DNA of 21,373 nucleotides from a virus. Positions 1 through 21,099 of this stretch are shown piece by piece; the stretch's first letter is position 1, and each line of letters opens with the position of its first letter. The stretch is taken from IMG/VR virus record IMGVR_UViG_3300031951_001405, positions 1 through 21,373 of that record, one strand, 5' to 3'. The notes below the pieces were generated by a model. The model searched no databases. It saw nothing but the letters and a program-made list of their open reading frames with translations, and was not told the DNA's origin. The position numbers and the translations under genes were made by a program.

Positions 1-96
1 GATCAAGCTATTCTCGATTACAAACCTCGTTTTCGTTTTCTGTGGAGGCTTTGGATAAAAGTTTGGGTTTATTTCAATCGTCCTAAAGAACCATGA
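1..96 (+). CDS. 3' end of an unknown protein (partial)
   Basis: An open frame runs from the first base of the window to a TGA at 94-96 and encodes the last 31 residues of a protein whose start lies outside. The tail is rich in aromatic and basic residues (FLWRLWIKVWVYF), which could be an amphipathic or membrane-associated C-terminus. The stop codon overlaps the start of an ATAAATA promoter-like motif for the next gene. I do not recognise the family. Because it is cut by the window edge, reality of the gene rests only on the open frame and its snug fit against the next gene. Confidence 0.5.
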   Translation, partial: DQAILDYKPRFRFLWRLWIKVWVYFNRPKEP

Positions 97-102
97 TAAA
101 TA
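95..102 (+). promoter_or_regulatory. Late-type promoter motif GATAAATA
   Basis: GATAAATA lies 9 bases before the ATG at 112 and resembles the T4 late promoter consensus TATAAATA. No -35 box is visible. The 15 bases ATAAATATATTTTAT (96-110) recur exactly at 9016-9030 before another small gene. If the start point is about 6 bases after the motif, the leader is about 4 bases. Confidence 0.5.
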
Positions 103-111
103 TATTTTATT

Positions 112-447
112 ATGGCAATTGATTTTAAACTCTTATGTGAAGAAATTCTTTTAGAAGAAGTATTAAACTCTCTTTTATTAAGAATTAGTACACTTGCATT
201 TAATGCCAAAAAAGATTACAACGAATATAAAAACCAACCCAATGCTGATAAACGTTTCCTTTTTAATGCTCTTAAAGCAGAAATAAATGATTTAAGGAAA
301 GAATTAAAAACAGGATTAGCCAAATTTAAAATAGACGTTAGTGACCCACAAAAATTTGATAATTGGGTTACAGATAAAGCACGGCAATTTGAAAATTTAA
401 AATATATTTTATACAGTTACATTAAAGAAGCTAAACACATTTCATGA
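112..447 (+). CDS. Small protein with capsid-targeting-like N-terminus
   Basis: This 111-residue, mostly helical, Lys- and Glu-rich protein matches no family I know. Its N-terminus reads FKLLCEEILLEE (residues 5-16). The 42-residue protein at 1497-1625 has FDTLCESILTEA and the protein at 1630-2049 has FDQLVNRLLSEK, so the pattern F-x-x-L-C/V-x-x-I/L-L-x-E is shared. In T4, short N-terminal helices ending in a (L/I)-x-E cleavage site direct internal proteins into the prohead and are removed by the gp21 protease. By analogy this may be an internal head protein. A late-type promoter sits 9 bases upstream and there is no Shine-Dalgarno. The stop overlaps the next start as ATGA. The family relation is inference. 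Confidence 0.75.
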   Translation: MAIDFKLLCEEILLEEVLNSLLLRISTLAFNAKKDYNEYKNQPNADKRFLFNALKAEINDLRKELKTGLAKFKIDVSDPQKFDNWVTDKARQFENLKYILYSYIKEAKHIS

Positions 448-686
448 TTTCTATATCTGAACCTAATCAGGTTGTTTATAAATTTACTAAAAAAATTTCC
501 GGGTCTTCTGTTGCTCCTGAACTTCCGGGTAAAATTTCTATTGAAATTAAAGAGGATTTAGATCTAGATGATCTTTTACAAACCTTTGAAAGCTTTTTAA
601 TCGCTTGTGGATTTGGATTAAGCGATAGTGAAAAATTAGCCATTGTATCTACTGAGTCAAGAGACGAAGAAGATTTTTCGGAATAA
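444..686 (+). CDS. Unknown small acidic protein
   Basis: This 80-residue protein of unknown function starts inside the previous gene (ATGA overlap at 444-447), so it is probably translated by coupling. The first half looks like beta strands (VVYKFTKKISG, KISIEIKEDL). The second half is helical and contains a hydrophobic stretch, FESFLIACGFGLSDSEKLAI. The C-terminus is strongly acidic (ESRDEEDFSE). No catalytic motif is visible. A reverse-strand open frame covers most of it, but the plus-strand frame fits the operon spacing and is preferred. Confidence 0.7.
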   Translation: MISISEPNQVVYKFTKKISGSSVAPELPGKISIEIKEDLDLDDLLQTFESFLIACGFGLSDSEKLAIVSTESRDEEDFSE

Positions 687-690
687 TTAA

Positions 691-1110
691 GTGATTTCAA
701 CGACAATACCTTTTCAAAAGCTTGAAGACGTTGCTTTGTCTCTTTTAGATAATCACAATGCTAATCGTTGTCGGCATTTTTCTTTTATTCTTTATAAGAA
801 TAGATTGATATCTACAGGTCTTAATGTTAATAAGACTCATCCCATGAACCTCAGAAATAAAAAAATTTCTAGAATTACTGGAGAGGATTATTCAGATCAA
901 AAACAAACTTGCTCAGAATTAAATGCTATTCTTAAATTAAAAAGATTAACTAATATTGATACTCGTAAATGCACTTTAGTTAATTTAAGATACGACCGTA
1001 ATGATAAAATTGCTTTAGCTAAACCTTGTTCTTCTTGCCAATCTCTTTTGAGATACCATAATTTTAAACAAGTAATTTGGTCTACAAATAATGGATACCA
1101 AACCTATTAA
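691..1110 (+). CDS. Cytidine-deaminase-superfamily protein, CxE type
   Basis: This 139-residue protein has the zinc-deaminase signature: C74-S-E76 (the C-x-E motif of cytidine deaminases, where Cys replaces the usual His ligand of dCMP deaminases) followed by P112-C113-S-S-C116. The glutamate is expected to shuttle protons and the three cysteines to bind zinc. The substrate cannot be told; a free nucleoside or nucleotide is most likely. The start is GTG, four bases after the previous stop, with no Shine-Dalgarno. Its last 20 bases overlap a second deaminase gene with the H-x-E variant, so the pair may act on different substrates or form a heteromer. The fold assignment is good and the exact reaction is open. 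Confidence 0.75.
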   Translation: MISTTIPFQKLEDVALSLLDNHNANRCRHFSFILYKNRLISTGLNVNKTHPMNLRNKKISRITGEDYSDQKQTCSELNAILKLKRLTNIDTRKCTLVNLRYDRNDKIALAKPCSSCQSLLRYHNFKQVIWSTNNGYQTY

Positions 1111-1516
1111 TATATCTTGGGAACAGTATGCTTTAATGCTTGCTGAAGTAGCTTCTTTAAAATCCAAAGACCCTTATGTACAAGTGGGTTGTTGTCTTCT
1201 TCGACACGATCATAGTGTAGCATCACTAGGGTTTAATGGATTTCCTTCTGGTATGTCAGAAGATTGGTCTAATAGAGATGAACGCAGAAGGTATGTTGTT
1301 CACTCAGAGGTCAATGCTTTGAGATATATAAAACCTAATGAATGCTATTTAGCAGCGGTGACTCTATTACCTTGTAATGATTGTTTACGTTCTTTAGCTT
1401 CTTACGGTATAAAGAAAATAGTTTACAAGGATGTTTATCAACACGATCCTTCTACTATTGATCTAGCCCAAGCTTTCGGTATAGAATTAATTCAGATTAC
1501 TTCTTGCGAAGTTTAG
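1091..1516 (+). CDS. dCMP-deaminase-like protein
   Basis: This 141-residue protein carries the deoxycytidylate deaminase layout: S-K-D-P-Y-V-Q-V-G near residue 30, GFNGFPSG at 47-54, H71-S-E73 as zinc ligand plus catalytic glutamate, and P94-C95-N-D-C98 as the other zinc ligands. dCMP deaminases make dUMP for thymidylate synthesis, and phages use them to balance nucleotide pools. The start overlaps the upstream deaminase gene by 20 bases. The 3' end overlaps the opposite-strand 42-residue gene by 20 bases. It is slightly shorter than T4 Cd. The call is confident at superfamily level and fairly confident for dCMP or a related pyrimidine nucleotide as substrate. Confidence 0.85.
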   Translation: MDTKPINISWEQYALMLAEVASLKSKDPYVQVGCCLLRHDHSVASLGFNGFPSGMSEDWSNRDERRRYVVHSEVNALRYIKPNECYLAAVTLLPCNDCLRSLASYGIKKIVYKDVYQHDPSTIDLAQAFGIELIQITSCEV

Positions 1517-1625
1517 CGAGCACAGCTCCAGCAACTTTTTTTCCTGCTCTAGCAGCTTTAGCGGAATAAGATTTCTTAGCCTCTGTGAGAATACTTTCAC
1601 ACAGAGTATCAAATCGGCTTTCCAT
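1497..1625 (-). CDS. Small basic protein, candidate internal head peptide
   Basis: This 42-residue gene lies 4 bases after the stop of the 139-residue gene upstream on the same strand, and its 3' end overlaps the deaminase gene on the other strand by 20 bases. The N-terminus FDTLCESILTEAKK closely matches the starts of the proteins at 112-447 and 1630-2049 and contains a T4-style (L/I)-x-E cleavage site (LTE before AKK). The rest is highly basic and alanine-rich (AARAGKKVAGAVLAKLRKK), as expected of a DNA-binding or capsid-internal peptide. The reading frame, spacing and composition support a real gene. The head-peptide role is inference. Confidence 0.65.
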   Translation of the reverse strand: MESRFDTLCESILTEAKKSYSAKAARAGKKVAGAVLAKLRKK

Positions 1626-1629
1626 AAAA

Positions 1630-2049
1630 TTAATCTTCTCCGAAACCTCTGCTGCTTTTAAAAGAAGGACTTACCAAGTCTTCTACGTCTGATGTACTAA
1701 AACGATCTCTTTGTGACATTTCATCTTCAGGTACTTCGAGAGCATTAACATCACCTTCGCCTTCTTGTTCAGCAACTTCCATTACACCTAAACCTAAAAG
1801 CTTATTAATATCACGGCTACCTAACCCGCTTTTTTGAAGTTGTTTTAAAAAGGCTTCACCGCTGTGAACCTCACCAGACATACCACTCAAGCGATCATAA
1901 GCAACACGCTCATCATCTGATAAGGTTCCTGAAGGAATTTCATCATATGATTTTAAATAATAATCTTTTTGAAGATTGAGTTTAACATCTCCTAATTCTT
2001 TTTCAGAAAGAAGGCGATTAACAAGTTGATCAAATTTTGGTGTATTCAT
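1630..2049 (-). CDS. Acidic protein with capsid-targeting-like N-terminus
   Basis: This 139-residue protein is of unknown family. The N-terminus FDQLVNRLLSEKE (residues 6-18) fits the F-x-x-L-x-x-x-(I/L)-L-x-E pattern shared with two neighbours and could be a prohead targeting and cleavage segment. The middle and C-terminus are acidic, low in hydrophobic content and probably partly disordered (EQEGEGDVNALEVPEDE), which would suit a scaffold or internal head component. A late-type CATAAATA motif lies 6 bases upstream of the ATG with no Shine-Dalgarno, so the transcript would be almost leaderless. The 42-residue basic gene follows 4 bases downstream. Role inferred from these features only. Confidence 0.75.
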   Translation of the reverse strand: MNTPKFDQLVNRLLSEKELGDVKLNLQKDYYLKSYDEIPSGTLSDDERVAYDRLSGMSGEVHSGEAFLKQLQKSGLGSRDINKLLGLGVMEVAEQEGEGDVNALEVPEDEMSQRDRFSTSDVEDLVSPSFKSSRGFGED

Positions 2050-2055
2050 TTTTTA

Positions 2056-2063
2056 TATTTATG
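2056..2063 (-). promoter_or_regulatory. Late-type promoter motif CATAAATA
   Basis: On the minus strand CATAAATA ends 6 bases before the ATG at 2049. It resembles the T4 late consensus TATAAATA with no -35 box. It overlaps the TAA stop of the upstream gene (2059-2061). A start point about 6 bases on would give a leader of roughly one base. Confidence 0.5.
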
Positions 2064-2445: not shown

Positions 2446-2834
2446 TATTTGTCCATGAACATAGCTTTTTGTGTAGCCGACATTGGGTAAATTTTTTCAT
2501 TGAAATATTTCCAAAATTCTTTTGGGTCTGGTGATGTTTTAATAACAGAGACTACCTCCACATCATTACAATTAACCATTCTATAATTTTGCATGAATAT
2601 ATCGTAAACGGGAATTAAATTTTTTGTTCTAGGGTCATAAGGTAATCCCGGTCCTATTGGTGGATCGTAATTAAGAATCTCTCTTCCTAATTTAGACATT
2701 AATAAACCAGAATCATTAGTACAAAGCATTCGTCTGTAATCATTAAATCCTGGCTTATTAATTCTTCTACGAAACTTTAATTCAATGACGTTTTGAAGAA
2801 GCATTAAAGCTAATGCATCTCTTCCTAGTCTCAT
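2445..2834 (-). CDS. SH3-fold/WYL-like small phage protein
   Basis: This 129-residue protein resembles the small SH3-barrel phage proteins related to WYL_2/DUF2693. A beta segment VVELKF-type stretch (VIELKFRRR) is followed by R-R-M-L-C-T-N-D (34-41 region), a run ending NLIPVYDIFMQNYRMVN, and a terminal strand (DVEVVSVI). In that family the pattern is strand, R-x-M-x-C-T, then a W/Y-R-x-F-type strand. The exact role is unknown. It overlaps the GroES-like gene upstream by four bases (ATGA) and is followed by a TAATG-coupled gene. The family call is by pattern memory and moderate. Confidence 0.5.
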   Translation of the reverse strand: MRLGRDALALMLLQNVIELKFRRRINKPGFNDYRRMLCTNDSGLLMSKLGREILNYDPPIGPGLPYDPRTKNLIPVYDIFMQNYRMVNCNDVEVVSVIKTSPDPKEFWKYFNEKIYPMSATQKAMFMDK

Positions 2835-3196
2835 GCAACACTCTCTTTAACCTCACAGATACCGAAGATACGATTTTCAGAAAGGAAGATAACCATGCCT
2901 TCTTTTTGACGAATCGCTTGAAGTCCTCGATCTCCTGGGAAGATAACTTTAGAACCTTTCTTAACTTGTTTGCATGAAGGTCCTGCTAATACCACTTCTC
3001 CTACTCTCCATGCTCTAGTGTCAACTACACTTGTAGGGAGTACGATTCCGTTTCTCATAACTCCTCCTTCTGTAGCGTCGAGATACTTTACCATGATTAC
3101 ATCACCTAATAGTTCTGTAATTTCATAATCTTCGGGTAGTGGTAGGTCTTTATAGTCTTCTGGTACGATGCCGTTATTTTCTCTTGGTAGAATCAT
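2831..3196 (-). CDS. GroES/gp31-like co-chaperonin
   Basis: This 121-residue protein has the cpn10 layout: GDVIMVKYLDA opening strand near residue 30, a glycine-rich mobile-loop-like stretch (EGGVMRNGIVLPT), then WRVGEVVLAGPSCKQVKKG and SKVIFPGD. These correspond to the GroES pattern of 'VxVK', 'GGI.LP', 'GxVxAVGxG...VKxGDxVxF'. In T4 the equivalent gp31 replaces host GroES so that GroEL can fold the major capsid protein. The N-terminal 20 or so residues precede the fold. It overlaps the clamp-loader-like gene by ATGA. An alternative is another phage SH3-like protein. Confidence 0.55.
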   Translation of the reverse strand: MILPRENNGIVPEDYKDLPLPEDYEITELLGDVIMVKYLDATEGGVMRNGIVLPTSVVDTRAWRVGEVVLAGPSCKQVKKGSKVIFPGDRGLQAIRQKEGMVIFLSENRIFGICEVKESVA

Positions 3197-3561
3197 ATAT
3201 TTGATTTATCATTATTATTAGTAAAGTCAAGCATTTGTTTAATTTCTTTTTGAGAAAGTTCCATTGTCTTTGATAAAATGTTAATTCTAGAATCTTTTTC
3301 TTCTTCTTTTTCTTCTTTAACTTTTTTAATATAATTTATTTTTGACATATATTTTTGTTTGGGGAAACATCCAATTAAAAGTTTGTAATGAATGTTTTTA
3401 TCAATATTGCCTAAACAATTAACAGATTCATTAATTGCTATACAAGAAGAAGGAGATGCAAAAGATAACCATCGATTGATTAAGAAAGGAACATAATTGT
3501 CTAAAGGTAAATTTCCTTTCTTACTTGTTATAATGTCTTTGAGATGGTCAAAGATAGTCAT
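3193..3561 (-). CDS. Clamp-loader small subunit, gp62-like
   Basis: This 122-residue protein starts MTIFDHLKDII and contains Y-V-P-F-L-I-N-R-W-L-S-F (about 23-34), followed later by CFPKQKY. This matches the pattern of short phage clamp-loader A subunits (gp62 of T4-like cyanophages: 'PFLINRxLS' and 'xPKGxR'). With gp44 these load the sliding clamp onto primed DNA. It is shorter than T4 gp62 (187 residues) but close to the compact phage forms. A Lys/Glu-rich charged stretch (VKEEKEEEKDSR) separates the core from a terminal helix. Start and stop overlap both neighbours as ATGA. No gp44 is in the window. Confidence 0.65.
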   Translation of the reverse strand: MTIFDHLKDIITSKKGNLPLDNYVPFLINRWLSFASPSSCIAINESVNCLGNIDKNIHYKLLIGCFPKQKYMSKINYIKKVKEEKEEEKDSRINILSKTMELSQKEIKQMLDFTNNNDKSNI

Positions 3562-4145
3562 ACAACCACTTTGCGTAACGCCACATGAATATCTCTAGTC
3601 ATGTTTTGGAAAATCTCTTCTGCCTCTTGCATAAAGTGAATAGCTTCCAATTCATCCAATTCTGTAGAATAAGCAAAGGAAGGGGCTTTAGGACCTGCTT
3701 GCATATTAATACCTGTATGAATCAACACACAATTATTCTTTTGAGCAGCAATAGAGACAGAACACTTTTTAGGTTCTTCTCCATCTACAATCATGATGTC
3801 ATCACCATCAACATATCCAGATTTCTCTAGATAGCTTGAACAAAGCAATGAACCTAGTTGAGCATTAAACAGACGTTGAAAACAAATCCCTCCAAACAAA
3901 TCTACGAAAGGAATTTCAATAAGAAAGTTAATAGCCATATCAGAATAGATATAATCTTTATTGATAGAGTCTTCGAGATCTATAAGATTATCACTAACAT
4001 AACAAGGCGCAATGAAAGAAATAATATCTCCAGTGGCTGTTACCGACTTCTTTAGGAATTTGTAACCAAAAAGGTTATGTAAAACAGATCCATCATAATA
4101 ATCCACACCAGTTGCTTCTTTTAGTTGTTGTCTTGTAATAATCAT
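3558..4145 (-). CDS. DUF366-like protein
   Basis: This 195-residue protein follows the layout of the mainly archaeal DUF366 family (PF04017), about 185-190 residues, as I recall it: D-Y-Y-D-G-S near residue 15, T-G-D-I-I-S-F, a central I-D-L-E-D, S-D-M, then F-Q-R-L, G-D-D-I, and C-S-V-S-I-A-A...H-T-G-I-N near the C-terminus. The biochemical role of DUF366 is not known to me. Its placement one gene away from a queC/amidotransferase operon, on the same strand and interrupted only by a homing endonuclease gene, suggests a part in the same base-modification pathway. A TTGATT-16-CATAAT promoter lies just upstream. The family call rests on motif order and spacing. Confidence 0.65.
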   Translation of the reverse strand: MIITRQQLKEATGVDYYDGSVLHNLFGYKFLKKSVTATGDIISFIAPCYVSDNLIDLEDSINKDYIYSDMAINFLIEIPFVDLFGGICFQRLFNAQLGSLLCSSYLEKSGYVDGDDIMIVDGEEPKKCSVSIAAQKNNCVLIHTGINMQAGPKAPSFAYSTELDELEAIHFMQEAEEIFQNMTRDIHVALRKVVV

Positions 4146-4225: not shown

Positions 4226-5116
4226 ATGAAACAGTATTACATTTATAAAATAACAAATAAACTAAACGGTATGCAATATATAGGATCTCATTGGGGTAAA
4301 TTAAATGACTCTTATTTAGGTTCGGGTTTGGCGATGAGAAAAGCAATAGAAAAATACGGTAAACATAATTTTAAAAAGGAAATAATTGAAATAGCAGATA
4401 ATAAAGATTTACTTTTAGAAAAAGAAAGATATTGGTTAGAAAAATTTAATTGTGCGATTAATCCAAAATTCTACAATTTAACAAATGTGGCTGGTGGTGG
4501 ATTTATGTCTGATGGCAAAACAAGTGAAGAAAAAAAAATTATTCGAGAAAAACAAGAAGTAGGTAGAAGTTTAAAGAGAAAACAAACAGCACAAAAAATG
4601 AAACAAACAAAACAAAATTGGACTGACGAACAAAAAAAAGCTAACAGTGAAGCGGTAAAAAAAGGTAAATTAAAAACACCTCAATGGAAAAGAAAAGAAA
4701 TAAATGAAAAAATGAGCGAATTACAAAAACATAATTGGCAAAATCTCACCGAACAAGAAAAATTAAAGCGTATCAAAAAATTAAAAGAAATGAGAAATAA
4801 ACAAGTTATAACAACTGAAAGAAAAACTAAAACTTCCGATACATTGAAGGACAATTGGAAAAAATTACCAGATGATTTAAAAGAGTTAAAAATTCAGCAT
4901 ATGGGTGACATTGTTAGAGGAAAAATGTGGTGTAATAATGGTGTTAAAAATTTCAGAAAAACACCGGAACAAATTAAAGAATTAAATCTTGAATTGGGTC
5001 AAATAACAATAACCCGGAAAGTGTGCAACAATGGTGTTAGAAATTTTTATAAAACATCAGAAGAAATTAAAAAATTAAATTTAATCCCTGGTAAAATTAA
5101 ATGTTATTTGCAATAA
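4226..5116 (+). CDS. GIY-YIG homing endonuclease
   Basis: This 296-residue protein opens with the GIY-YIG nuclease domain: Y5-I-Y7 ... Q17-Y-I-G20-S-H, a basic helix around S-G-L-A-M-R-K-A, and the E-K-E-R-Y-W segment with the expected catalytic glutamate, ending in T-N-V-A-G-G-G. A long lysine-rich linker follows. The C-terminus holds two copies of a repeat of about 25 residues, each starting C-N-N-G-V-K/R-N-F and ending L-G-Q or P-G-K. Such repeats occur in T4 Seg-type free-standing homing nucleases and probably bind DNA. It is the only plus-strand gene between 1517 and 7793, and its end overlaps the convergent glycosyltransferase gene by 13 bases. This points to invasion of a minus-strand operon. 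Confidence 0.9.
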   Translation: MKQYYIYKITNKLNGMQYIGSHWGKLNDSYLGSGLAMRKAIEKYGKHNFKKEIIEIADNKDLLLEKERYWLEKFNCAINPKFYNLTNVAGGGFMSDGKTSEEKKIIREKQEVGRSLKRKQTAQKMKQTKQNWTDEQKKANSEAVKKGKLKTPQWKRKEINEKMSELQKHNWQNLTEQEKLKRIKKLKEMRNKQVITTERKTKTSDTLKDNWKKLPDDLKELKIQHMGDIVRGKMWCNNGVKNFRKTPEQIKELNLELGQITITRKVCNNGVRNFYKTSEEIKKLNLIPGKIKCYLQ

Positions 5117-5784: not shown

Positions 5785-6410
5785 AAAAGAAAATAAGGAT
5801 TGTTGTAAGGAAAGGTTCCTGTTTGTTTAAAGTTAGGACCATTAAATTCAAAGATAATTCCGTCTTCATCTACGTTGTGAGATCCTTTAAATGATACAGA
5901 ACTAAAAGAATCTTCGTCCATATGCAAAGAAGAACCAGCTTTAACTAAATAAAGCTTTTCTGTAGTATAAATCCAAGAAGTTAAAAGTCCTTTATACAGG
6001 GAATATGTTTTAGCTATATCTCCATTGTTAAGATGAAGATGGTAAGGGATAATAGAAGAGTCTACTTCAAATTCAGAATGATTAGAAAAGTCTGTAAAGT
6101 TTTGTATAATACCATTATGAGCTACAAAATTAAATCCGAAATTAAAAGGATGTGTAGTGGTATAATCAAAGCTTTGTTTTGAAGAATTGGTTGGAGCTCT
6201 TGAATGAAAAAGATAATAAATTCCAAACTCATCTAATCTTTTAAATTCTTCTTGGAGTGTTTCTAAATCAAAAGGAGCTTCTTGTTTAAGAACAGTAAAG
6301 TGATTCTTACTAAATCCTAAAAACCCAGAAGCAAAAGACCCTCTTTCTAAACCAGATTGATAAAGGTCAAATGCTTTTTCTAAAGAAGGAGATCCGCAAA
6401 TGTTACACAT
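5781..6410 (-). CDS. Class II glutamine amidotransferase
   Basis: This 209-residue Ntn-type amidotransferase has C2 right after the initiator Met (MCNICG) as nucleophile, H-S-R71-A-P-T for glutamine binding, H87-P-F, the oxyanion N99-G100 in FVAHNGIIQNF, and D117-S-S. This matches the standard order of GATase class II sites. It hydrolyses glutamine to ammonia for a partner enzyme. Its ATG overlaps the queC stop (TAATG), so the two are translationally coupled. In Crenarchaeota and some phages the same two domains are fused as Gat-QueC, linked to archaeosine-like amidation of a 7-deazaguanine. Here they are separate polypeptides. The partner is inferred from coupling. Confidence 0.85.
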   Translation of the reverse strand: MCNICGSPSLEKAFDLYQSGLERGSFASGFLGFSKNHFTVLKQEAPFDLETLQEEFKRLDEFGIYYLFHSRAPTNSSKQSFDYTTTHPFNFGFNFVAHNGIIQNFTDFSNHSEFEVDSSIIPYHLHLNNGDIAKTYSLYKGLLTSWIYTTEKLYLVKAGSSLHMDEDSFSSVSFKGSHNVDEDGIIFEFNGPNFKQTGTFPYNNPYFLL

Positions 6411-7141
6411 TAGTTAGATAATGATACACAATTATATTTTTGCCACGGTATTTCTTTAGAATAAAGTAGGGGATCAATAACCTTAGCTTCAAGGAATCCC
6501 ATAATACGAGCAGCACAAGCTGGACAAGTACCACAACTCTCTTCTAATCCTTCATAACAAGTCCAAGTATTTTCAAACTTAACACCCAATGAAATGCCAT
6601 ATTCAATAATTTCTTTCTTAGACATTTTAACTAATGGAGCCTCAATTTGTACTTTGTTAAGACGATTAAATGCCAAACAATCATTAAGACTATTTCTAAA
6701 TTGTGAAGTACCATCCCAATGACCACTAGTATCATCCACTAAAGCTGCTCCATAATAAACCTTAGAACATTTAGCTGCTTCAGCATAAGAAGCAGCAATA
6801 GACAATAGAATCATATTTCTATTAGGCACATGAGCTTTGTTTTGAGCTTCTCCAATAACCTCTTTCATTTGAGGCACATTAATGTCTTTGTTAGTTAAAG
6901 CAGACGTTGGCGCTAGAAGAGAAAGAAATTTTAAATCTACTACAATATGTTGTTTGATTATTGAATCTTCTCCGACACCAAAAGATGTAGTATATTCTAA
7001 AGCTTTATCAATTTCCTTTCGATGTCTTTGATTATAATCAAACGTCAAACAATAAACATTATCATATGATTTTAAACAATGATGAAGGACTACAGTAGAG
7101 TCCATTCCTGAACTAAAAACAACTACACAACTGGAATTCAT
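6410..7141 (-). CDS. queC: 7-cyano-7-deazaguanine synthase (QueC)
   Basis: QueC converts 7-carboxy-7-deazaguanine to preQ0 using ATP and ammonia. This 243-residue protein has the PP-loop near residue 10 (F9-S-S-G12-M-D14-S15), H-V-P-N-R-N-M near 104-110, a V-Y-Y-G-A-A-L-V-D-D segment, and the zinc site C195, C203, C206, C209 in a C-x7-C-x2-C-x2-C layout. The canonical SGGxDS reads SSGMDS, so the first Gly is Ser. It starts the operon queC / amidotransferase / glycosyltransferase, with a TTGATT-16-TAAAAT promoter 7 bases from the ATG. Phages use QueC to make preQ0-derived bases for their DNA. FolE, QueD, QueE and DpdA are not in this window. The enzyme family is clear. Confidence 0.92.
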   Translation of the reverse strand: MNSSCVVVFSSGMDSTVVLHHCLKSYDNVYCLTFDYNQRHRKEIDKALEYTTSFGVGEDSIIKQHIVVDLKFLSLLAPTSALTNKDINVPQMKEVIGEAQNKAHVPNRNMILLSIAASYAEAAKCSKVYYGAALVDDTSGHWDGTSQFRNSLNDCLAFNRLNKVQIEAPLVKMSKKEIIEYGISLGVKFENTWTCYEGLEESCGTCPACAARIMGFLEAKVIDPLLYSKEIPWQKYNCVSLSN

Positions 7142-7774: not shown

Positions 7775-7781
7775 ATAAATA
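7775..7781 (+). promoter_or_regulatory. Late-type promoter motif ATAAATA
   Basis: CATAAATA (7774-7781) lies 11 bases before the ATG at 7793 and has no -35 box. A start point about 6 bases downstream gives a leader of about 6 bases. Confidence 0.45.
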
Positions 7782-7792
7782 ATCTTATTAAT

Positions 7793-8176
7793 ATGGTATT
7801 TAAAGACTCCACCCTTTTACAAGAAGCTTACATTTCCGCTATACAAAAATCAGTAAATGTACCTTCTAATGGAATTAGACCTGCGGTTGATATGGTACCA
7901 AGTGTAACTACACCTGTTCCTGGTGAGGTCTCTACACAACCCGAAGACGGTTGTGGGTGTGGTTGTTCTTCTGAAGACAGTGAAGAAAATTACATGGCTA
8001 TGTCGAATTTGTTTTCCATTTTCAGTAACGCTAAAAAATTACATGCCTTTTTAATGTCAGGCGTAGAAATGGATGAATGGATGGTACAAAAGATTGCAGT
8101 ATGTGCAGATAATTTGGAAAGCGTCATGCGTTCAGCGAACTATGACGCCGCCAAGTCCGGGATAGGTTGCGATTAA
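7793..8176 (+). CDS. Unknown late-type protein with Cys cluster
   Basis: This 127-residue protein of unknown family has an N-terminus with T-L-L-Q-E-A (7-12), which contains a (L/I)-x-E step like a prohead cleavage site. A Pro/Val-rich linker follows. Then comes a small cluster D-G-C-G-C-G-C-S-S-E-D-S-E-E-N near residue 60, with three Cys in alternation and an acidic tail, possibly metal-binding or crosslinking. The rest is helical (MSNLFSIFSNAKKLHAFLMS). A late-type promoter motif lies 11 bases upstream. Its TAA shares two bases with the TTA of the opposite gene at 8173. Probably a virion or assembly protein. Confidence 0.65.
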   Translation: MVFKDSTLLQEAYISAIQKSVNVPSNGIRPAVDMVPSVTTPVPGEVSTQPEDGCGCGCSSEDSEENYMAMSNLFSIFSNAKKLHAFLMSGVEMDEWMVQKIAVCADNLESVMRSANYDAAKSGIGCD

Positions 8177-20719: not shown

Positions 20720-20881
20720 ATGAAAAAGATTCTCTATACAGAGGAAGAATTAGCTTTCTGTCTGGAGAATAAAAATTATAAGACTTTTTGGTCTTATTAC
20801 TTGATTTATAAAGCCAACATTAAAATATTTTTTAGGATGGCTAAAGCGAGTCTTTTAGGGTATCTTATCTATCATAAATAA
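20720..20881 (+). CDS. Unknown 53-residue basic protein
   Basis: A 53-residue frame starts MKKILYTEEELAFCLENKNY and continues with T-F-W-S-Y-Y-L-I-Y-K-A-N-I-K-I-F-F and a basic Lys/Arg-rich end. It fits between the genes on either side (12 and 5 bases). AAGG lies just before the ATG but is too close for a good Shine-Dalgarno. No family known. Confidence 0.55.
   Translation: MKKILYTEEELAFCLENKNYKTFWSYYLIYKANIKIFFRMAKASLLGYLIYHK
20874..20880 (+). promoter_or_regulatory. Late-type motif before 70-residue gene
   Basis: CATAAATA (20873-20880) ends 6 bases before the ATG at 20887. It overlaps the stop of the gene before it. It fits the late-type motif spacing, but it lies inside coding sequence. 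Confidence 0.3.
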
Positions 20882-20886
20882 AATAT

Positions 20887-21099
20887 ATGAATAAATTTAA
20901 TAAAGTTTACGAGTCTTTTAAACCTATGAGTTTAGCTCAATTAGACAATAAACAAGTTGAACAGCTGGATCGTTTAATAGATTATATTAAAAAGAATCTT
21001 CCAAAGTACGAAACTAAAGAAGAACAAAAAGCTATCTTTCAAACTCTTATTGGGGATTTAGAAGATACGATGTATATCTATCAAGACGGTTGGAAGTAA
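20887..21099 (+). CDS. Unknown small helical protein
   Basis: This 70-residue protein has F-K-P-M-S-L-A-Q-L-D-N-K-Q-V-E-Q-L-D-R-L-I-D-Y-I-K-K-N-L, likely a pair of helices, and a Q-T-L-I-G-D-L-E-D-T end. No motif known. A late-type ATAAATA lies 6 bases upstream. Its TAA directly abuts the TTA stop of the convergent gene. Confidence 0.65.
   Translation: MNKFNKVYESFKPMSLAQLDNKQVEQLDRLIDYIKKNLPKYETKEEQKAIFQTLIGDLEDTMYIYQDGWK

Follow-up and report, generated by a model that had tools for sequence, protein, structure and literature searches.

Shared N-termini of unrelated proteins in a T4-like phage fragment as candidate capsid-targeting and cleavage signals

INTRODUCTION

The prohead protease of bacteriophage T4 cuts its substrates after L/I-x-E, and the protease itself, gp21, has LIE-9 (PMC9026906). 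The first ten residues of the T4 internal protein IPIII constitute an experimentally defined targeting signal, with positions 4 and 7 serving targeting and positions 8 and 10 serving processing; in the T4 capsid-targeting sequence (CTS), targeting and cleavage are separable (PMC9026906). Here we examine short N-terminal sequences (tags) shared by small proteins of IMG/VR record IMGVR_UViG_3300031951_001405, a fragment of an uncultured T4-like phage; the window is the complete record of 21,373 bases. The original prediction was that three unrelated proteins, encoded at 112, 1497 and 1630, begin with a common motif, F-x-x-L-C/V-x-x-I/L-L-x-E, that directs them to the capsid and is cleaved there. 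Our computational analysis leads us to conclude, with fair confidence, that these N-termini are T4-type capsid-targeting and cleavage signals whose new consensus classes set them apart as a variant of the CTS. The window proteins 112, 1497 and 1630, together with a fourth at 7793, are good candidates for internal head proteins. Because the IPIII start is experimentally defined, a similar role for related tags is likely.

RESULTS

Tagged proteins of the window

The 112, 1497 and 1630 proteins open with F-x-x-L-x-x-x-[IL]-L-x-E at nearly equal distance from the initiating methionine (F at residues 5, 5 and 6; E at residues 15, 15 and 16, respectively). The quoted sequences are as first described, and the three proteins form separate blastp families and are non-homologous. 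PHROGs and Pfam assign them no function and no known family, and sequence searches of the PDB gave nothing meaningful. The open reading frame at 112..447 (plus strand) encodes a helical protein of 111 residues with N-terminus MAIDFKLLCEEILLEE; its tag, FKLLCEEILLEE, spans residues 5–16 (nt 124–159) and lies within a helix (residues 5–39) of an AlphaFold2 model with a mean pLDDT of 66. The AlphaFold2 models are of low confidence (mean pLDDT 66 and 54) and were left out of fold searches. The 42-residue protein at 1497..1625 (minus strand; N-terminus MESRFDTLCESILTEA) has the tag FDTLCESILTEA at residues 5–16, followed by AKKSYSAKAARAGKKVAGAVLAKLRKK, which carries a net charge of +10 over 27 residues, in agreement with its earlier description as strongly basic. 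The third open reading frame (1630..2049, minus strand; N-terminus MNTPKFDQLVNRLLSEK) specifies an acidic protein of 139 residues (net −13) with the tag FDQLVNRLLSE at residues 6–16 (nt 2002–2034). A winged-helix core is possible for this protein, with sub-threshold helix-turn-helix matches in one relative.

An aromatic-x-x-hydrophobic core is present in all three tags (F5–L8 in 112, F5–L8 in 1497 and F6–L9 in 1630). The 127-residue protein at 7793..8176 (plus strand; start MVFKDSTLLQEAY), in which LLQEA had been singled out, indeed begins with FKDSTLLQEA; its tag, FKDSTLLQEAY (residues 3–13), is a divergent form of the aromatic core (F3/D5 with L8–L9) and belongs to class B as defined below. 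The tags end in [LI]-x-E sites: LCE/LLE in 112, LCE/LTE in 1497, LSE in 1630 and LQE in 7793. The 112 and 1497 tags each contain two or more such sites, and the exact position of the putative cut is uncertain because most tags hold two or three of them. A weaker candidate, a 70-residue protein at 20887..21099 (plus strand; MNKFNKVYESFKPM), has V-x-E instead of L/I-x-E.

Late-type motifs had been reported upstream of two of the three genes, and ATAAATA does precede both 112 (96..102, plus strand, 9 nt upstream of the start) and 1630 (2055..2061, minus strand, 5 nt upstream of the start at 2049). A T4-type late promoter box (TATAAATA-type) is thus found upstream of 112, 1630 and also 7793 (ATAAATA at 7775..7781, plus strand, 11 nt upstream). 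The 1497 gene follows the 1630 gene by 4 nt, and the 20887 gene has a late-type box at 20874–20880. Across the families described below, late boxes are commoner where a tag is present (22 of 50 versus 89 of 555, P 1e-5).

In 242 of 404 box-bearing genes of the clade, [AT]TAAATA lies 4–7 nt ahead of the start codon, compared with 0 of 31 in T4, and a Shine–Dalgarno-like sequence precedes only 7% of clade genes, compared with 50% in T4. Late mRNAs of the clade are probably leaderless, and the host is probably poor in Shine–Dalgarno sequences, like Bacteroidota.

Recurrence of N-terminal tags in related contigs

The 7793 protein gave entry to the relatives: it led to four contigs in viral_contigs, and their gene order around the tagged loci is similar to that of the window. 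When the 1630 or the 112 protein was the query, protein-only searching of viral_contigs gave no matches. With the gp23 gene as query, 80 loci were recovered, and the larger contigs among them were examined whole; the 46 gp23-related contigs, scanned with profiles A1 and A2, yielded no homologue. N-terminal statistics were drawn from the window and 18 related contigs (1,543 mechanically called genes in 605 families), with expectations taken from interior sequence.

If the shared motif marks a class of packaged proteins, it should recur, and N-terminal patterns of this kind are found in ~50 of the 605 families, with roughly 1–15 tag candidates per contig before correction for chance matches. The CTS-type pattern, [FY]-polar-x-[FYL]-hydrophobic-(x)-E, occurs at the N-termini of 16.3 families versus 1.6 expected (10x, P 3e-11), and [LI]xE[AS] beginning at residues 4–14 occurs in 32.6 families versus 9.4 expected (3.5x the interior density). 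The control patterns [LI]xD (0.73x) and [LI]xK (1.05x) show no N-terminal enrichment. The exact pattern of the original prediction is present at 5 N-termini and at 0 of 4,097 internal-methionine controls, and a loose version, which accepts E or D at its end, has 16 starts within the first 10 residues versus ~1.8 expected from interior density. As a correction to the predicted motif, the part conserved between families is the core [LI]-x-E-[AS], which often coincides with the first E. De novo motif discovery by capped expectation maximization found a blend that we take to comprise two N-terminal forms, F-[DK]-x-L-x-E-x-[LY]-L (class A) and D-x-x-L-I-[FYA]-E-A-[YF] (class B). The T4-like F-K-x-[FY]-[IL]-x-E makes up a third form. 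An uncapped run learned general composition only and was discarded.

These are small open reading frames of low-complexity composition in which the motif was spotted by eye, so that a chance resemblance among a few hydrophobic, AT-rich N-termini has to be considered. The positional enrichment overall (P 1e-7 to 1e-11 with interior controls), the conservation in orthologues described below and the negative-control phages largely refute this explanation, which we regard as very improbable.

The negative controls, SPO1, T5, crAss and lambda (581 genes), have no Peptidase_S77 match. Neither pattern is significantly enriched in them (CTS-type, 2 versus 1.0 expected; [LI]xE[AS], 7 versus 9.6). In T4, the positive control, N-terminal [LI]xE[AS] is found in 6 of 18 head genes, among them ipII, ipIII, gp22, gp24, gp67 and gp2, but in only 6 of 258 others (P 2e-5). 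Enrichment is positive in both T4 and P-SSM2. These comparisons bear on a second alternative, that the tag is a generic amphipathic helix (for a membrane, a host target, a chaperone or tail assembly) that resembles the CTS by convergence, on proteins that work inside the cell and stay out of the virion. In its favor, amphipathic helices of such short length are frequent, several of the tagged proteins, judged by eye, resemble enzymes in having nucleotidyltransferase-like motifs, and crAss too has some F..L..LxE starts. The late boxes upstream, the association of such starts with head genes in T4, the negative-control phages and the gp23-arm proteins described next all count against it, and we consider this alternative quite unlikely.

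Proteins combining a tag with a gp23-arm copy

Five genomes encode a protein of 78–85 residues that consists of a tag and a copy of the mature arm of that genome's gp23 (G028, 33131; G038, 3342 (L165); G040, 67677; G043, 60869 (L166) and G050, 64745). The copy begins at the gp23 junction or a few residues after it, with a lysine-rich stretch inserted, and within each of the five genomes the best match of the arm protein is that genome's own gp23. A tblastn search of annotated phages with the G050 protein gave no match. T4 itself encodes a tag-plus-arm protein, gp61.1 (NC_000866, 18966–19130; L160), in which MKTFKEFIKE is followed by a copy of gp23 residues 68–93 and a Lys-rich tail. Its best match in the T4 proteome is gp23 (score 69; next, 47), and 0 of 2,000 shuffles reach 69. 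Matches to gp61.1 occur in 1,386 phage records, mostly labeled hypothetical protein; phrog_1823, to which it belongs, has no assigned function, and the literature searched gave neither a function nor a role in the virion. The window itself yielded no protein of the gp61.1 type. The tag-plus-arm proteins, gp61.1 included, link the tags to the capsid and are the most telling observation for the capsid reading.

The machinery that such signals would require is encoded by close relatives. A Peptidase_S77 prohead protease (phrog_207), not found in the 21-kb window fragment, is carried by G001 and G004, and its neighbors in G001 are gp23 and a gp22-like scaffold (T4_CASP above cut-off). The protease orthologues start with LLVE, FLVE or LIE, and most scaffold orthologues have LTE, ITE or LSE near the N-terminus. 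Aligned to the T4 junction FLTE↓AEIGG, the gp23 propeptide junctions of the clade read WCLNE↓ANTA, WCIGE↓ANVAGG and WCFE↓ASNVAGG; placed in this way, gp23 would be cut at an [LIF]xE-type junction.

A third explanation is that the tag, once bound to the prohead core or to some other component of the head, is retained as an assembly or localization helix rather than cleaved off as a propeptide. The separability of targeting from cleavage in the T4 CTS (PMC9026906) is compatible with an uncut tag, as are orthologues in which no clear [LI]xE stands where one is expected (the 1630 family). The enrichment, however, is specific to E ([LI]xE up, [LI]xD down), and the tag sits where gp23 loses its propeptide. 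We therefore view retention of the tag as unlikely and prefer a cleaved targeting signal.

Conservation in orthologues

Among aligned orthologues of the 112 protein, F5, L7, C9, E10, L13, L14, E15 and E16 are all invariant. In the 7793 family the first 16 residues are identical across three aligned relatives, and distant orthologues hold variants of the tag such as RDYNTLNELY and KDNYLLEKAY. Orthologues of one class B family have a second conserved site, [LV]xE↓API, at variable distance. No orthologue of the 42-residue 1497 protein was detected in the contigs examined. Orthologues of the 1630 protein in G001–G004 have 180–182 residues and an additional basic C-terminal tail after LEE↓AKK; a distant one in G018 has 299 residues (MTKNFDTLLESVLSRLDE).

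Comparison of G001 (25288–25830) with the window (1497–2049) shows that the C-terminus of the relatives' 1630 product has an additional site of the LEE↓AKK type and a basic tail (+13), and that in the window a separate 42-residue gene, in another frame, holds the position of that tail. Position, charge and an LxE↓AKK junction fit a view of the 42-mer as the detached tail of the relatives' 180-residue protein. We do not claim homology, as 13–38% of shuffles reach the similarity.

Several observations weigh against a capsid-targeting role or limit its support. The 1630 orthologues keep the start MNTPKFNEL or MNTPKFNEI but continue with LFNLQEK or LSTLEEK and not LLSEK; the LLSE form occurs in the window member only. 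No head genes were found in the window record. KVP40 and S-PM2 are weak or negative, with no [LI]xE[AS] excess, and a looser pattern, [FY]..[FYLI].{0,6}[LI].E, shows mild enrichment when the negative controls are pooled (12 versus 6.1), mostly from crAss. A weight matrix built from the relatives does not rank the T4 internal proteins high; the class A and B tags are therefore not the T4 CTS sequence. Finally, the patterns were partly picked after viewing the data and refined on the same data, and for this reason the control genomes and the gp61.1 result weigh most. Taken with these, the recurrence, the likeness to the T4 CTS and the gp23-arm proteins support the capsid-targeting and cleavage reading as originally put forward.

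Other genes of the window

The window also encodes a Cpn10-like (gp31-type) protein (2831–3196), a clamp loader subunit (3193–3561; phrog_225), a DUF366 protein (3558–4145) and, identified by eye, a QueC-like gene (6410–7141). A homing-endonuclease-like gene (4226–5116) shares ~71% DNA identity over 163 bases with enterobacterial T4-like phages.

DISCUSSION

We propose that otherwise unrelated late proteins are trapped in the prohead through a short amphipathic helix (F/D-x-x-L...) that attaches to its core. The prohead protease would then cut after an [LI]-x-E located inside this helix or at its end, mostly before A or S, and cleavage would free the mature protein into the DNA-filled head. 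For the 1497 product this would leave a basic peptide of 27 residues that could bind packaged DNA. Packaging, cleavage, injection and cargo function are all inferred from sequence; the virus particle probably carries the tagged proteins and may inject them into the host.

If this is correct, the N-terminus alone would help to predict which phage proteins of unknown function are packaged and probably injected, gp61.1 of T4 would gain a testable function class and new tags would be available for loading proteins into T4-like heads. A broader proposal is that a family of interchangeable N-terminal tags serves T4-like phages in general for loading many cargoes, enzymes included, into the head, and that the gp23-arm, lysine-rich protein is a widespread cargo that would line or regulate the inner capsid surface or the protease. 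This extension is tentative, and we give it slightly less than even credence.

The giant phages SPN3US and phiKZ (PMC5694885, PMC7411985) likewise have a T4-type prohead protease, which cuts after x-x-E, and diverged paralogues, gp53 and gp54, with identical short N-termini. They differ in their motifs (AxE or S/A-x-E), in the length of several SPN3US propeptides (>100 residues) and in belonging to another phage group. The closer parallel is the T4 CTS of IPI, IPII, IPIII and Alt (Mullaney and Black 1996, reviewed in PMC9026906), which, like the window tags, comprises 10–20 N-terminal residues on unrelated proteins, with an aromatic-x-x-hydrophobic core (Y4 and F7 in MKTYQEFIAE) and [LI]-x-E before A at the end. 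Starts nearly identical to it occur in the relatives (MKTFKQYISE, MISFKQFFTE and MNFKEFTTILKEA). The window tags differ from the T4 CTS in sequence, being either F-x-x-L-x-E-x-[IL]-L-x-E (class A) or D-x-x-L-[LI]-x-E-A-[YF] (class B), and they often hold two or three [LI]xE sites; they are also found on more families, and their packaging is a prediction. In gp61.1, T4 has a protein of the same design as the five environmental proteins of 78–85 residues.
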